Below are positions 2,366-19,327 of a stretch of DNA of 34,122 nt, in pieces; the stretch's first letter is position 1; the number at the start of each line of letters is the position of its first letter. The DNA comes from Leucothrix mucor. Lineage in GTDB: Bacteria > Pseudomonadota > Gammaproteobacteria > Thiotrichales > Thiotrichaceae. The DNA lies in the NCBI GenBank assembly GCA_015663245.1, contig DQSN01000170.1, forward strand, positions 1 through 34,122. The letters are read 5' to 3'. A model generated the notes under the pieces. The model had not been told where the DNA came from and did no database searches. It worked only from the letters and a program-made list of their open reading frames with translations. The translations under genes were made by a program, and so were the position numbers.

Positions 2366-3091
2366 TTGATAACTATAAGCATCATCCTAGCAGCGGCATA
2401 TCAAGCACCAATAGCACAAGATAAAAGCTATCATCAATTTTTTGATAGCAATACAATTTTCAATATTCCCAATTTCTGGAATGTGCTATCAAACCTACCC
2501 TTTCTATTTGTTGGAATATGGGGAACGCTGTGGATAATTAAATCTGACACAACAAGCTATTTACATGAAATAAAGCTGGCTTATTTTGCATTATTTATAG
2601 GTGTAGGATTAGTTTCTATCGGCTCTGGCTACTATCACTTGTCACCTAATAACAACACGTTGATGTGGGATAGACTGCCGATGACAATTGCCTTTATGGC
2701 ACTATTTTCAATTATTCTCAGTGAGTTTATCCACATTCAACTCGGACGCATACTGCTATTGCCGTTACTCATTGTAGGCATATCATCAGTTATGTACTGG
2801 CATTTCTCCGAGCTGGCAGGACAAGGAGACTTGAGATTCTATGCGTTGGTGCAATTTTTACCCATTCTCATCATCCCTATTATTTTGATATTTTTTCAAA
2901 GTGTTTTTGACAGAAGAAATGCTTATTGGTTATTATTAGCTGCTTATCTGCTAGCCAAAATATTGGAATATTACGATGAAGAAACTCACCGTATTGTATT
3001 TTTTCTCAGTGGGCACAGCTTAAAACACATTGTCGCCGCAGCTGGAGTTTACCTACTACTTCGATCTTACAAGACAAGACTGAGATGCTAA
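2366..3091 (+). CDS. CREST-superfamily (alkaline ceramidase-like) membrane hydrolase
   Basis: A seven-helix-type membrane protein of about 241 residues with the conserved CREST residues (alkaline ceramidase, PAQR, Per1 superfamily): Ser87 and His91 in GSGYYHLSP, Asp102 in MWDRLP, and the C-terminal HxxxH (His217, His221) in GHSLKHI. These should form a membrane-embedded zinc site that hydrolyses an amide or related lipid bond; the true substrate is not evident. NFWNVLSNLPF near residue 36 is typical of bacterial members. The start is uncertain: no ATG lies in frame. TTG at 2366 is the first usual start, but the frame is open back to 2297 and an AAGGGA ribosome-binding-like sequence (2314-2319) points to ATC 2327 or ATA 2330. 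The stop overlaps the convergent metallo-hydrolase gene by 4 bases. Confidence 0.8.
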   Translation: MITISIILAAAYQAPIAQDKSYHQFFDSNTIFNIPNFWNVLSNLPFLFVGIWGTLWIIKSDTTSYLHEIKLAYFALFIGVGLVSIGSGYYHLSPNNNTLMWDRLPMTIAFMALFSIILSEFIHIQLGRILLLPLLIVGISSVMYWHFSELAGQGDLRFYALVQFLPILIIPIILIFFQSVFDRRNAYWLLLAAYLLAKILEYYDEETHRIVFFLSGHSLKHIVAAAGVYLLLRSYKTRLRC

Positions 3092-4041
3092 TTTTTTTCT
3101 TGTCGCTGCAACCAAACCTCCAAGCCTTGAGCGTTTAATCGGCTATCCGTCTGCAACCACTTTTTTTGCTCTGCTATCGACAAGGTGCAACTCCTAAGAC
3201 TTAACTCTTTTAATAGCCACTGCATAATCTGTCGTTCGATTCTCTCAACTCTCCCCTCTATATTGGCTTTTTCACTTTCTGCAATGGCAACAAAGGCACT
3301 GATTGATTTTAATAATTGCGTTGTAATATCCGCAGTTGGTTTGATTGCACCAAAATGGGTTAAGTACATAAGCTCAGGCTTAAAAGAAAGCAACTTACTA
3401 ATACTGTCACGCATAGCAGTAGGGTCAAAATGTACGGGCGTCGTTGTCGCAAAGATAAAGTCACCTTGCTCAGAGGCTAGTTTTTTGTAGACCAAGCCAA
3501 AAGTATCGCCTGTAAATATTCCCTTGCTCAATTCATCATAAATACAAAAGTGATGGTAGGCATGACCAGGCGTATCAATAAAATGAAAGACTCTGCCATT
3601 AAAATCCAGCTTAAAATCATTATCTGCAATCATCACTCGGTGTTCAGGAATTGCTTTTAAAGTGCCATAAAGTGCTCGATATTTTTCCTCTCCATACACA
3701 GCCATCGTTCCTGCCTCCAATCTTGCAGGATTGATCATGTGTTGCGCGCCGCGCGGATGGATAACTAACTGAGCATTAGGGCATTGCTCCATTAACTCCC
3801 CTGCCCCACCAGCATGATCTAAATGGATATGAGTAGGAATAATGTAACTCACATCATCAGGGGAAAAGCCCAGCTCATTGAGCGCTGATAAAATATAAGG
3901 AACACTATTAGCCGTGCCTGTTTCAATAATGCTGACCTTATTCCCTTGAGCAACTATATAAATACTTGCCACACCTAACTGTACATAATGCGCATCGAGA
4001 ACACTGACCCCATGCGGTAAATGACTTAGCTGATTATTCAT
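3088..4041 (-). CDS. MBL-fold metallo-hydrolase
   Basis: A 317-residue metallo-beta-lactamase-fold hydrolase. The metal ligands are visible: HIHLDH (His71, His73, Asp75, His76), His160 in TPGHAYHH, Asp179 in FTGDTFG and His229 in YLTHFGA. No signal peptide is present, so it is cytosolic. The last third is a helical extension of the kind seen in glyoxalase II-like and related MBL proteins; the substrate cannot be told from sequence. Its ATG overlaps the stop of the upstream GT51-like gene in an ATGA (4038-4041), implying translational coupling as the last gene of the creD operon. Its stop overlaps the end of the convergent CREST-family gene. Confidence 0.85.
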   Translation of the reverse strand: MNNQLSHLPHGVSVLDAHYVQLGVASIYIVAQGNKVSIIETGTANSVPYILSALNELGFSPDDVSYIIPTHIHLDHAGGAGELMEQCPNAQLVIHPRGAQHMINPARLEAGTMAVYGEEKYRALYGTLKAIPEHRVMIADNDFKLDFNGRVFHFIDTPGHAYHHFCIYDELSKGIFTGDTFGLVYKKLASEQGDFIFATTTPVHFDPTAMRDSISKLLSFKPELMYLTHFGAIKPTADITTQLLKSISAFVAIAESEKANIEGRVERIERQIMQWLLKELSLRSCTLSIAEQKKWLQTDSRLNAQGLEVWLQRQEKN

Positions 4042-4685
4042 AAGTTATAATATACATCGTTAATACCTTGGGGTTGGTAAGAGCCATCCAGTAGTTTTTT
4101 AATACGCACTACCCGCGCCTGATTTTTTTCGGGGTGATTTTTCACACTATAACCATCTGGTGCAATTAGCATTGCGACCAGCGCTAAATATTCATCCTGA
4201 CTCAATTGCTCAAATGATTTATCAAAGTAAATATTAGCGGCTTGAGCAAAACCTTTCACAGCTTTATTAGCAATTGTTCCAAAGTATGCCGTATTGATAA
4301 ATACGGTGAGCTGATCTTGTTTTGAGATCATAGGATTAACCGCGAGCCATGCTATTAAGCTCTGCTCTATTTTCATCATCCCAGAACGAAATTTCTCAAA
4401 GTATAAATACTTGACCATTGCTTGGGTGATAGTCGTTAAGCCTGCCCCCGCTGTATTAAAATCAATTCCACTATGCTCAAAGAATTTAGGGTCTTGCACT
4501 TTCAACAAATCATCTACTCTTTGTTGAGAAACTACTTCAAGTGATAGCTCCATCTCTTTTGAATTTAATATATTATTAAATTTTTCGATAGTAACTGAAC
4601 GTGCTTTGTATACTGCTACCGCTTCATAAGCAAATAGCATCGCAAGTGCAAGCAGGATAAGTTTTAGGATTTTTTTAATGTTCAT
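4038..4685 (-). CDS. GT51-like transglycosylase homologue lacking both catalytic Glu
   Basis: A membrane-anchored protein (hydrophobic segment about residues 5-25, counting from the ATG at 4685; a TTG at 4691 is also possible) with a single GT51 peptidoglycan glycosyltransferase domain, about the size of MtgA. GT51 motifs can be followed: VQDPKFFEHSGID, GLTTITQAMVKY, KIEQSLIA, SKQDQLTVFINTAYFG. The first motif normally begins with the catalytic Glu (EDxxFxxHxG); here it is Gln64 (codon CAA at 4496-4494). The second Glu, fourth residue of the KxxE motif, is Gln108 (codon CAG), although Glu107 sits beside it. It is therefore probably inactive as a polymerase and may act as a regulator or lipid II-binding protein. 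It lies 9 bases after the phosphatase gene and is coupled to the MBL gene. Confidence 0.8.
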   Translation of the reverse strand: MNIKKILKLILLALAMLFAYEAVAVYKARSVTIEKFNNILNSKEMELSLEVVSQQRVDDLLKVQDPKFFEHSGIDFNTAGAGLTTITQAMVKYLYFEKFRSGMMKIEQSLIAWLAVNPMISKQDQLTVFINTAYFGTIANKAVKGFAQAANIYFDKSFEQLSQDEYLALVAMLIAPDGYSVKNHPEKNQARVVRIKKLLDGSYQPQGINDVYYNL

Positions 4686-4719
4686 AAGCAATATTCATAA
4701 GTAATGTTCGTAAGTACTA
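4681..4719. repeat. Three tandem 13-bp repeats at a gene junction
   Basis: Three adjacent 13-base units, TTCATAAGCAATA (4681-4693), TTCATAAGTAATG (4694-4706) and TTCGTAAGTACTA (4707-4719), agree at 10-11 of 13 positions with their neighbour. They encode the end and stop of the histidine phosphatase and the start of the GT51-like gene on the minus strand, so copy number would alter the junction. Confidence 0.7.
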
Positions 4720-5258
4720 TATTCCCAATGTTCTCGGGGTGATTTTTTAGCGCCCTTCCAACCTCTACGCTTTAATTCTTTAGCTATAAAATGATTAATA
4801 AAACCATGCCCAACAAATAATAAGCTTTCATGTTGTTGTGCTATTTCTTCTAACTTATCAGCCGCAAGCTTTGCTCTTTTACGCGTCTTCGCAATTGACT
4901 CGCCATTTTGGGAATAACCAAAGAGCCACAATGTTCGGCAAATTAAAAACCATGTCATGGTATTTAAACGTGGATATGCCCAATTGCTACTGGGCAACTC
5001 CGCTTCACGAAATATTTCATCACTTAATAAAACACTCTGTTGCGTCAGCTTTTTTGCTGAGTCCAAAGAACGTGGTAGATGACTGCAAACAACTGCCTTA
5101 ATACTGTTTGCAGCTATCATTGATGATTCAGGAGGCATGCTATCCGCTGCTATCCCTGCAGCATCATAGCGAGTAATAAATTCAACAATCTCATTACTCC
5201 TAATTTTCTCTGGCACATCAATATCAGGTTTACCGTGCCTCAATAATATGATCTTCAT
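4695..5258 (-). CDS. Histidine phosphatase family protein (PGM-like)
   Basis: A 187-residue branch-1 histidine phosphatase. The phospho-acceptor is His8 in LLRHGKP, with Arg7; the second Arg is Arg63 in SHLPRSLDSA, the acid is Glu87 in REAELP, and the second His is His151 in FVGHGFINHF. No signal peptide is seen, so it is cytosolic. The hydrophobic stretch around 101-115 (MTWFLICRTLWLFGY) is unusual for the family and may be a surface or membrane contact. Its start lies inside the 3' end of creD (29-base overlap) and the GT51-like gene follows at once, so it is co-transcribed with envelope genes. The substrate cannot be inferred; this superfamily includes mutases, sugar phosphatases and protein phosphatases. 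Confidence 0.85.
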   Translation of the reverse strand: MKIILLRHGKPDIDVPEKIRSNEIVEFITRYDAAGIAADSMPPESSMIAANSIKAVVCSHLPRSLDSAKKLTQQSVLLSDEIFREAELPSSNWAYPRLNTMTWFLICRTLWLFGYSQNGESIAKTRKRAKLAADKLEEIAQQHESLLFVGHGFINHFIAKELKRRGWKGAKKSPREHWEYSTYEHYL

Positions 5259-16062: not shown

Positions 16063-17586
16063 ATGAGAACAAAGTCATTGGTAACAATTGTTGGAGGCCT
16101 ATTAATTTTATCTGGCCTCATTAATATTGTACAAGCTGAGAGTACAAAACAGGTTAGCCCCCCGCCCACAGCAAAGACTGATGATGCTTCTAAGCTAGAG
16201 TTCAAACCATCTTATATGTCCGTTAAAGATCATCGAAAGTTAACCGTTAAAGATTGGACTGATCCAGAAATATGCGCCCAATGCCACCCTCGTCAATACG
16301 AAGGCTGGAAAGGATCTATGCATGCTAACTCTTTTAAAGATCCCGTTTTTCAAGCAGAGTGGGCGCTAGCAGAAAAAGCACTGGATGGAAAAATGATGAA
16401 CTATTGCGGCTCTTGTCATACGCCGATTGGTATTGCAACAAAAACCGTCGATTTTGATCCGAAAGAAAGTCAAGGCGCATTGCATGGCAAGTTCACCGCA
16501 CCTACTATTGCCTCTAAAGGTGTTTCTTGTGATGTCTGCCATACTATATCAGGCTCAAATGCTGATATAACAAAGATACAAGAACGTGGAAATGCCTCTT
16601 TTGAGATGGATCCTGGTCCTGTAAAGAGAGCAACATTAAAAGACCCCGATCCTGTATCACCTTTTCATAAAACAGAATATTCTGAGCATCATACCAGCTC
16701 ACAATTTTGTGGAAACTGCCATCAAATATTCCATCCAACCAACAACTTTCCTATAGAACGAACTTACGATGAATGGAAATTCTCTCCATATGCTCAGAGC
16801 AATGTGCAATGCATGGATTGTCACATGGTACCAGTGGCAACAGCAATTCGTGTTGCGGATGAAATGAAGCCTGCTAAAGAGCTTAAAAACTCTGAAATTG
16901 GTGGCTTCGCAGGGATTGGCGGACCACTTCGCAAAGTGGTGCATGACCATGGATTTGTGGGAGGCAATGCTGTTATAAGCGGATTGCTCAATGGCGAGTC
17001 AAATGAGAAAACTAAAAAAGAGGCTATCAGACGATTACAAAGCGCGGCTTCAATAAACCTATCAATTTTTCACCAAAATGGTCCGTTACATAAGTTAGTC
17101 GTTCGCGTCAATAATGACCGTGCGGGACATAATTTACCGACCAGCTTGGTCAATGTGCGTGAGCTTTGGTTAGAAGTTATTGTGACTGATGATCAAGGCA
17201 AAGAGTTAATGCGATCAGGAACAAAAACCAAAGGAAATGCACTGCCTCCAGGTACCGTTATATTTAATGCTAATGCCGTTGATAAAAATGGTAAGCACAC
17301 AACTTTTCCATGGGAAATCGATCACTTCACAGATATAAATACGATACCACCTAAAGGTCATAAAGATTCAAACTATGCATTTAACCTTCCTGAAGGTATT
17401 AAAGAAATAAAGGTAGTTGCTAAATTACATTATCGTTCTTTTTCACAGAAAATAGCGGACAAATTATTGGGTAAAAGCACTGTAATCGTTCCTTCTGTCG
17501 AAATGGTTGTCAATGAAACAGCCTTTCCTGTGATTGATAGCAAGGTGCTTGATAACAGATCAAAAAATAAAGAGTCAAGCAAATAA
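16063..17586 (+). CDS. Periplasmic penta-heme c-type cytochrome
   Basis: A 507-residue exported multiheme cytochrome. The signal peptide ends at about VQA (residue 25). Five CXXCH heme sites are at 71-75 (CAQCH), 115-119 (CGSCH), 156-160 (CDVCH), 216-220 (CGNCH) and 250-254 (CMDCH); additional His and Met residues offer sixth ligands. The heme-binding part resembles the cytochrome c554/NrfA-like fold class. From about 350 on there is a heme-free beta-rich domain beginning near DRAGHNLPTSLVNVRELWLEV. It probably carries electrons in the periplasm; no dedicated redox partner or substrate can be named. It heads an operon with a di-heme cytochrome and a Met-rich membrane protein, behind an FNR site. 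It has a good ribosome binding site. Confidence 0.85.
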   Translation: MRTKSLVTIVGGLLILSGLINIVQAESTKQVSPPPTAKTDDASKLEFKPSYMSVKDHRKLTVKDWTDPEICAQCHPRQYEGWKGSMHANSFKDPVFQAEWALAEKALDGKMMNYCGSCHTPIGIATKTVDFDPKESQGALHGKFTAPTIASKGVSCDVCHTISGSNADITKIQERGNASFEMDPGPVKRATLKDPDPVSPFHKTEYSEHHTSSQFCGNCHQIFHPTNNFPIERTYDEWKFSPYAQSNVQCMDCHMVPVATAIRVADEMKPAKELKNSEIGGFAGIGGPLRKVVHDHGFVGGNAVISGLLNGESNEKTKKEAIRRLQSAASINLSIFHQNGPLHKLVVRVNNDRAGHNLPTSLVNVRELWLEVIVTDDQGKELMRSGTKTKGNALPPGTVIFNANAVDKNGKHTTFPWEIDHFTDINTIPPKGHKDSNYAFNLPEGIKEIKVVAKLHYRSFSQKIADKLLGKSTVIVPSVEMVVNETAFPVIDSKVLDNRSKNKESSK

Positions 17587-17664: not shown

Positions 17665-18531
17665 ATGTATAAATTACATGCTAAGTTTTTAAAGCCATTA
17701 CTTATCGGATGTGTTGTTTTTTCTAATCAGGTATTAATTGCAGCAGACACCCCTTTGGAAACCATGATGAAAGCGGGTCAAGACACCTTGCAAAAAACAA
17801 TGGATATGGCGACCACTGCAGCAGAAAAAGCAAAGAAAGATGCACAGTCAGCAGTGGCTAGATTGCCGTCCTATTCAATCAATACTTTAACACAAAGTGG
17901 TGAGCCTCCAGAGCCTAGCAATGACTTTGTATGGACACAGGAAACACTATCTTTAGCACAAAAAGGTGATATAAAGCGTGGAAAGGAATTAGCAAAAAAA
18001 GGGAAGTGTCATAAATGCCACGGCGATACGGGTTTGAGTGATGAGGATGATACACCCAGTATCGCGGGACAAATCACAGCCTATTCCTTTAAACAGCTAC
18101 ATGATTATAAAGTTGGTTTACGAGAAAGTAAGGAAATGCTCAAAAAGGTTAAAAACCTAAGCCCCAAAGATATGGCTGATATTTCAGCTTATTATGCGAC
18201 TCAAAAGCCTGAAAAAAAGCTAGGGGTTAAAGTGCCTGTTCTCGCCGACAAAGGCGATCCTAAACGCTTTTTATTGGCCTGTAATTATTGCCATAATGAT
18301 GAAGCGATGGAGCGTGGCTATCAGACTCCCATTCTGGAAGGACAAAAAGTAGAATACTTTAAAGAAACCATGCTAGCGTTCAAAGAAGGCGATCGTGTCA
18401 ACGATCATTATAATTTAATGCGTGGATTGTCTGCAAAATTAACAGAAGAAGAAATAGATGAACTGGCTGAGTATTATTCGACAAAACCTATCGATGAAGA
18501 CGAAGACGAAGACGAAGACGAAAAGGACTAG
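17665..18531 (+). CDS. Di-heme c-type cytochrome (c4-like) with acidic tail
   Basis: A 288-residue periplasmic cytochrome. The signal peptide ends at about Ala27. Residues 33-65 form a charged amphipathic helix outside the heme region. Two class I-type heme domains follow, with CHKCH (115-119) and CNYCH (206-210); methionines such as those in KEMLKKV and NLMRGLSAKL are candidate distal ligands. This is the tandem layout of cytochrome c4-type electron carriers. The C-terminus (277-288) is an Asp/Glu run encoded by GACGAA repeats, likely an electrostatic docking tail of variable length. The gene has an AAAAGGA ribosome binding site and lies 78 bases after the penta-heme gene; the Met-rich gene follows after 22 bases. 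Confidence 0.85.
   Translation: MYKLHAKFLKPLLIGCVVFSNQVLIAADTPLETMMKAGQDTLQKTMDMATTAAEKAKKDAQSAVARLPSYSINTLTQSGEPPEPSNDFVWTQETLSLAQKGDIKRGKELAKKGKCHKCHGDTGLSDEDDTPSIAGQITAYSFKQLHDYKVGLRESKEMLKKVKNLSPKDMADISAYYATQKPEKKLGVKVPVLADKGDPKRFLLACNYCHNDEAMERGYQTPILEGQKVEYFKETMLAFKEGDRVNDHYNLMRGLSAKLTEEEIDELAEYYSTKPIDEDEDEDEDEKD
18493..18522 (+). repeat. GACGAA hexanucleotide repeat in the cytochrome tail
   Basis: One GATGAA followed by four perfect GACGAA units, encoding alternating Asp-Glu at the C-terminus of the di-heme cytochrome. Copy changes are in frame and would only lengthen or shorten the acidic tail. Confidence 0.85.
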
Positions 18532-18553: not shown

Positions 18554-19066
18554 ATGAATAAATCATCAGAAATCAAACAAACCCCTTTTTTTAACAATAC
18601 GCTTAGACTGTTTATTATTATTTTTATGGCAATTGCCTGTTATTTTATGGTGATGTTCATGGTGAATATGGGGGGCGATATGAACAAAATGACGACCTCT
18701 GTTGTTAGGATGAGCAATGACGTACATATAATGACAAAAGATATGACAGGCATGGCAAAAGAGATGACAACAATGGCTTCGAGTATGGTTGAAGGTCAAG
18801 AAAAGATGGGAAATGATTTTGCAGGTGTGGCTAAAAACATGAATATCATGACAGGCAGCATGAGCAATATGAGCAGAGACATGAATGGTCTTGGCATTAA
18901 TATTCACAGTATGAATACTAATATGGCACAGATGACGAAATCAATGGCACGTATGAGCCAAGATATGGCTGTTATGAATCAATCAATGGGAGGCATGGGA
19001 AAAGACATTAATAAATTCACTCGACCAGAATCAATAATGATGCCCTTTATGCCTAACATGCGTTAG
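18554..19066 (+). CDS. Met-rich membrane-anchored coiled-coil protein
   Basis: Not recognised as a named family. The 170-residue protein has a short basic N-terminus, one transmembrane helix (about 18-38) and, by the positive-inside rule, a periplasmic helical rod. Thirty-four of 170 residues are Met. From Met43 to Met148 one heptad register (every seventh residue, 16 positions) is filled by 12 Met, 3 Val and 1 Leu. The second core position is Met at +3 in the first half (46, 53, 60, 67, 74) and mostly Met at +4 in the second (96, 103, 110, 124, 131, 138, 145). This is a long coiled coil with a methionine core. Last gene of the cytochrome operon, with GGAGAG upstream. Possible roles are a scaffold for the cytochromes, an oxidant sink or copper binding; none is proven. 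Confidence 0.75.
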   Translation: MNKSSEIKQTPFFNNTLRLFIIIFMAIACYFMVMFMVNMGGDMNKMTTSVVRMSNDVHIMTKDMTGMAKEMTTMASSMVEGQEKMGNDFAGVAKNMNIMTGSMSNMSRDMNGLGINIHSMNTNMAQMTKSMARMSQDMAVMNQSMGGMGKDINKFTRPESIMMPFMPNMR

Positions 19067-19069
19067 AGA

Positions 19070-19327
19070 TTAGGGAGTACTCTCAATTAACCTTCAAAAC
19101 TTTGTTAAAGCTGAAAGCTCTGAATAAGCCAGTGAGGAGGAAATTAAATCACTCCAAGATAAACGGATAAATAGCGCAGCATAGCATGGCTTTCCACCTT
19201 CACCCGAGGTATCAACACTGCCTTCGCTTGGCAGCACTATTAGTACCTATATATCCCACAATCACTTTTTAGAGGACTAACAACGACCTTGACAAAACAG
19301 CGGAGGTTAATTGAGAATACTCCCTAA
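19070..19327. mobile_element. MITE-like element with 24-bp terminal inverted repeats
   Basis: The ends at 19070-19093 and 19304-19327 are inverted copies agreeing at 23 of 24 bases (outer end TTAGGGAGTA); weaker similarity extends another 15-20 bases inward. The ~258-bp body has no transposase frame and contains a small hairpin (CTGCC at 19218-19222 with GGCAG at 19230-19234). Both ends carry a TA next to GGGAG, which would fit TA target duplication as in Tc1/mariner-IS630 elements. It begins 3 bases after the Met-rich gene stop and ends 24 bases before the HAD-like gene. Confidence 0.7.

Follow-up and report, generated by a model that had tools for sequence, protein, structure and literature searches.

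A predicted methionine-cored coiled-coil protein of Leucothrix mucor and its superfamily, nearly confined to sulfur-oxidising bacteria

The window analysed here, the whole 34,122-nucleotide stretch of Leucothrix mucor DNA, holds a short gene for a Met-rich protein, P0001, whose coordinates, strand, length and Met count as given in the initial annotation all proved exact when the translation was checked again. The gene starts 22 bp after the stop codon of a di-haem cytochrome c gene, itself preceded by a gene for a penta-haem cytochrome c that is probably the first of the operon (Table 1). Relatives of the penta-haem cytochrome are 66% identical to it and have five CxxCH motifs; the cytochrome pair as a whole is found in four relatives at ~50-67% identity, with a Met gene beside the pair in none of the four. 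The di-haem cytochrome carries an N-terminal Met/Ala/Lys-rich, helical-looking stretch (17740-17860, and at L154:6124-7053), which has repeats in relatives, for example AAKDMMQQGKDTAKEMGQSAKDM, and might serve as a contact to the Met zipper. Just downstream of the Met gene an imperfect 39-nt inverted repeat (79%; 19070-19108 and 19289-19327) encloses 180 nt, and this MITE-like element is single copy in the genome.

Table 1. Genes of the locus and parts of the P0001 protein, with their positions in the window.
Feature	Position	Strand	Basis
Penta-haem c554-like cytochrome c, 507 aa, probable first operon gene	16063..17586	+	Pfam Cytochrome_C554
Di-haem cytochrome c, 288 aa	17665..18531	+	Pfam Cytochrome_CBB3/Cytochrom_C; weak PdsA model match; pair conserved in relatives
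Met-zipper gene P0001, 170 aa, 34 Met	18554..19066	+	Translation, orthologs, unnamed superfamily
N-terminal segment, residues 1-17, predicted cytoplasmic	18554..18604	+	Sequence; predicted topology
Single TM segment, residues ~17-38, LRLFIIIFMAIACYFMVMFMVN	18602..18667	+	Sequence; helix in both AlphaFold2 models
Predicted Met-cored coiled coil, residues 32-155	18647..19018	+	Register analysis, alignment A2, AlphaFold2
Conserved segment SMVEGQ..MG.DF..V...M, residues 77-96	18782..18841	+	Alignment A2
Conserved C-terminal tail DINKFTRPESIMMPFMPNMR, residues 151-170	19004..19063	+	Alignment A2; profile match to Magnetococcia group tail

Every seventh residue from 43 to 148 had been described as Met, Val or Leu throughout, and this register was found exactly so, with Met at 12 of the 16 positions, Val at the second, third and eighth and Leu at the eleventh. 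The hand-over of the register from one core position to the other is also real and consists of one stutter (3-4-4 spacing), the site of which is 88-92-96, slightly later than the residues 78-85 proposed, as the partner core position is at +3 up to 88 and at +4 from 92. The a and d positions of P0001 are residues 32, 36, 39, 43, 46, 50, 53, 57, 60, 64, 67, 71, 74, 78, 81, 85, 88 and 92 in the first half and 96, 99, 103, 106, 110, 113, 117, 120, 124, 127, 131, 134, 138, 141, 145, 148, 152 and 155 in the second, and Met occupies 27 of these 36 positions. With one register break allowed, all 26 Met residues within residues 36-156 fall at a or d, compared to a mean of 12.8 core Met (sd 1.2, maximum 17) in 500 shuffles of the same residues for which the register, again with one break, was re-optimised. 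Met-Met spacings of up to 20 residues are only 3, 4, 7, 10, 11, 14, 17 and 18, and the Met regularity is greater than the initial annotation described. Residues outside the core are for the most part Asn, Gly, Ser, Thr, Lys, Ala and Asp.

An alignment of 11 ortholog rows (A2), in which the other orthologs are 33-48% identical to P0001, allowed free swapping of Met for Leu or Ile to be looked for among the homologues, and it was not seen: Met was kept in 91% of comparisons, compared to 68% for Asp, 65% for Phe, 53% for both Val and Ile and 35% for Leu, no residue other than Met exceeding 68%. In the ortholog genes Met stays at 15-20% over a GC3 range, computed without ATG codons, of 0.29 to 0.93, so that mutation bias does not explain the Met content, and chance or a composition artefact is ruled out by the shuffles together with this independence of GC3. 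Where coil lengths within A2 differ, they do so by whole heptads of 7 or 14 residues, all of them located in the second half, and hence the register is kept. The invariant residues G81 and D88 of the conserved segment occupy core positions, and the stutter lies within the same segment. These comparisons show that Met itself is under selection, beyond hydrophobicity. That the protein is an oxidant sink, its Met being oxidised by reactive species and then repaired as for MrpX with MsrP/MsrQ, would suit a Met-rich and presumably periplasmic protein, but it fits poorly because Met is nearly missing from the exposed faces, making up 0.5% of the non-core residues of the orthologs; the Met positions are moreover conserved residue by residue, and no msrP/msrQ or other Msr gene was recognised in the window or, by eye, near the orthologs, making this reading very improbable indeed.

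The N-terminus is predicted to be cytoplasmic because K3, K8 and R18 adjoin the TM segment (positive-inside rule), and the coil would then be mostly periplasmic and anchored in the inner membrane. Two AlphaFold2 runs predicted helix for residues ~12-155 with low-to-medium confidence, and an outcome with no helix, on which the initial annotation would have fallen, was not seen. The first run gave helices 12-85 and 90-155 (mean pLDDT 61, break at 86-89) and the second, using 20 sequences, helices 13-113 and 117-155 (mean pLDDT 68, break at 114-116); pTM was 0.25-0.30, these are single-chain models and the helix break differs between them. Confidence was highest in the TM region (pLDDT ~80-96 across both models, >90 in the second). 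A fixed antiparallel helical hairpin is unsupported, as the break is not reproducible and the heptad insertions and deletions lie in the second half only; this last point favours a parallel assembly, although the oligomeric state is our inference. Approximately 120 helical residues at 0.15 nm each give a coil of ~18 nm, which could therefore span the periplasm, and this length, together with the 119-147 residues that separate the TM segment from the C-terminus in extension-free superfamily members, suggests a periplasm-spanning rod.

Orthologs were found in one Thiotrichales metagenome-assembled genome and in whole genomes of the class from four further families (f16, f63, f102 and f134), including 6 of 6 genomes examined in f102; genome G345 (f33) has a more distant member. 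A close ortholog was absent from 62 other genomes of the organism's own family, so that loss or horizontal transfer is likely; plasmid or phage origin was considered and dropped, no match being present among plasmids or viral contigs. Weaker homologues include paralogs in the same genome (G000:C8, C142 and C57), and together these proteins form a previously unnamed superfamily with a shared plan: a variable, cytoplasmic N-terminus, one TM segment, a Met-cored coil and a conserved C-terminal tail, with forms such as RPxxFxxxFMPW, RPMSFINRFMPW, SSFTSPxxYM, NISxPLxxMNKFxPF and AAPMRxFNS. Counted over 96 members, 1653 Met residues are in the core and 48 off it; the members were gathered by Met content, which biases their Met share, while the split between core and off-core is unbiased apart from the register fitting, for which the shuffles control, and most members lie clearly above their own shuffles. 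A profile-profile comparison of A2 with the Magnetococcia group alignment (A3) gave 98.6% probability (E 5e-16) with the tail aligned, a score of the kind that heptads inflate. No Pfam or NCBIfam model matched P0001 above its cut-off, a PDB profile search returned weak coiled-coil matches only and no homolog with a solved structure, and a literature search on 'methionine zipper' and similar terms brought up no relevant work.

The distribution of the superfamily was surveyed in an even draw of 369 Gammaproteobacteria genomes, using the A2 profile (E <= 1e-6) for the superfamily and TIGR02061 for AprA, which found them in 66 and 109 genomes respectively. AprA was present in 51 of the 66 carriers compared to 58 of the 303 other genomes (odds ratio 14, Fisher p = 4e-19, kinship being ignored at this genome level), and when genomes were collapsed to families, the sole correction for phylogeny, in 27 of 32 carrier families compared to 28 of ~139 others (p = 1e-11). 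SoxZ was found in all 11 ortholog genomes and in 12 of the 15 carriers that lack AprA; among 27 controls with neither superfamily nor AprA, 6 had it. Carriers outside the class are Magnetococcia-like, with AprA in 21 of 26, and marine magnetic cocci without AprA combine reverse Dsr with Sox (PMC6783814). The superfamily is nearly confined to sulfur-oxidising bacteria; this is an association with sulfur oxidation and not in itself a function, but it points to a so far unrecognised component of sulfur metabolism in the periplasm, of which P0001 would probably be a structural part in the cell envelope. Such a component would occur in Thiotrichaceae-like bacteria, magnetotactic cocci and, judging from AprA among other grounds, probably SUP05-like bacteria.

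Several orthologs also lie beside sulfur genes. In one genome (G280, locus L049) soxY, soxZ and the Met gene are ~5 kb from sat-aprM-aprB-aprA (names by eye), the AprA at C34 being confirmed by the TIGR02061 search and the SoxZ by search as well; in another (G195, L051) the ortholog adjoins genes for an FccB-like flavoprotein and a di-haem cytochrome (fccA/fccB); and in six genomes of one genus it stands, by eye, in an operon-like arrangement beside a rhodanese-like gene, with a gene resembling D-aminoacyl-tRNA deacylase mostly on the other flank. In G034 (L154), one of the four relatives with the cytochrome pair, genes for soxY, soxZ, an RND adaptor and an RND permease come after the pair itself (names by eye). 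Four ortholog loci (L046, L047, L048 and L053) have no sulfur gene near the ortholog.

These four loci would be expected of a generic envelope rod, one that serves as a structural tether, has no role specific to sulfur and owes its distribution to lineage and habitat, and so would the varied contexts of the subfamilies, which include an RND efflux/ParA/dynamin-like operon, a MotA/ExbB-like gene (L096) and a divergent RND operon (L109); against this stand the AprA-positive state of 27 of the 32 carrier families and the SoxZ found in most AprA-negative carriers, and we consider a generic rod quite improbable. The first of these contexts is a conserved operon of one paralog subfamily (L100, L101, L102, L103 and L168), which comprises a divergent RND permease, a small unknown protein, a ParA/MinD-like ATPase, a TPR-like TM protein, the Met-zipper paralog and a dynamin-like GTPase, the RND being of the type that follows soxYZ in G034. 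The L096 locus (2383-5212) has a paralog from the same genome as P0001 after a MotA/TolQ/ExbB-like gene and two unknown single-TM proteins, ExbD-like by eye, a set that may form a proton-driven complex in which the rod contains Met. Two tandem Met-zipper genes come directly after the genes of an RND adaptor and permease in a Magnetococcia-like genome (L109:5390-6542). At a further locus (L105:5000-6816) the second Met-zipper gene of its genome, with 16% Met, lies immediately upstream of a gene from the di-haem cytochrome c peroxidase family.

The spacing of Met at i, i+3, i+4 and i+7 creates continuous MxxM/MxxxM motifs, which in principle might bind or conduct Cu(I) or Ag(I) along Met triads of a trimeric coil, as in Ctr1. 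This reading is weakened because no copper gene was recognised in the ORF list of the window or in the ortholog neighbourhoods; in addition, the best-scoring models for the RND encoded in the paralog operon are of the multidrug type and not CusA, and sulfide in such habitats would scavenge copper. Cu(I) binding is therefore very improbable, and like an oxidant sink it is less likely than a role in sulfur oxidation.

Our preferred reading, to which we give about an even chance, is that P0001 is a membrane-anchored Met-zipper rod acting as a scaffold of periplasmic sulfur oxidation. The protein would be anchored in the inner membrane and be mostly periplasmic, with a core made nearly all of Met, would most likely self-associate in parallel through the Met seam, and could present the conserved Pro/Phe/Met C-terminal tail at its far end, across the periplasm. 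It may there scaffold or tether Sox carrier proteins, flavocytochrome c sulfide dehydrogenase, rhodanese and c-type cytochromes. Met is probably retained for the flexible, polarisable and sulfur-compatible core that it forms amid weakly helix-forming Asn, Gly, Ser and Thr. Both the scaffold role and this reason for Met are what we infer from the regularity, the selection and the sulfur links described above, and the existence of a widespread family whose core residue under selection is Met turns 'why Met' into a testable question.

Met might instead be kept for its chemistry and not for packing alone, the thioether stripe itself binding zero-valent sulfur, whether as polysulfide, as S8 or at the surface of a globule, and tethering or guiding it at the membrane. 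Consistent with this, it is Met rather than hydrophobicity that is conserved, the superfamily is nearly confined to sulfur oxidisers and the products of neighbouring genes make or carry periplasmic sulfane sulfur; but protein binding of S8 or polysulfide through Met is not known to us, and Met would be unavailable if buried in an oligomer. Sulfur globules are present in many magnetic cocci (PMC6783814), but no globule gene was recognised nearby, and we regard binding of this kind as unlikely, though credible. The bolder form, in which a Met-only seam spanning the periplasm is a dedicated structural or sulfur-handling element whose thioethers contact zero-valent sulfur directly, is distinctly unlikely; if true, it would add a new mode of elemental-sulfur handling by proteins.

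Among known systems, the best sub-threshold library matches of P0001 were DUF948 (PF06103; 25.5 bits over residues 25-84, below the gathering cut-off of 37.2) and IcmG/DotF (NF038218; 28.3 bits, below the cut-off of 200), both of which share with it a single TM segment and a coiled coil; no Dot/Icm gene was recognised in the ORF list of the window. MrpX, a periplasmic peptide rich in Met, belongs to the hypochlorite response of MsrP/MsrQ; its gene lies next to msrP/msrQ and the genes of a sigma/anti-sigma pair, and no such neighbours were recognised in the same list. P0001 is likewise small, Met-rich and presumably periplasmic, but differs in having a TM anchor and in having its Met limited to the coiled-coil core and conserved residue by residue. 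Coiled-coil cores are normally built of Leu, Ile and Val; P0001 has a heptad likeness to Lpp, chemoreceptors and designed coiled coils in the PDB, with weak profile matches (best E 1e-5, to a designed coil). Helical surfaces lined with Met, such as those of the SRP54 M domain, calmodulin and the Ctr1 Met triads, make soft, adaptable or Cu(I) contacts, but these proteins have other folds, whereas P0001 presents a seam of ~27 Met on one predicted 120-residue helix.
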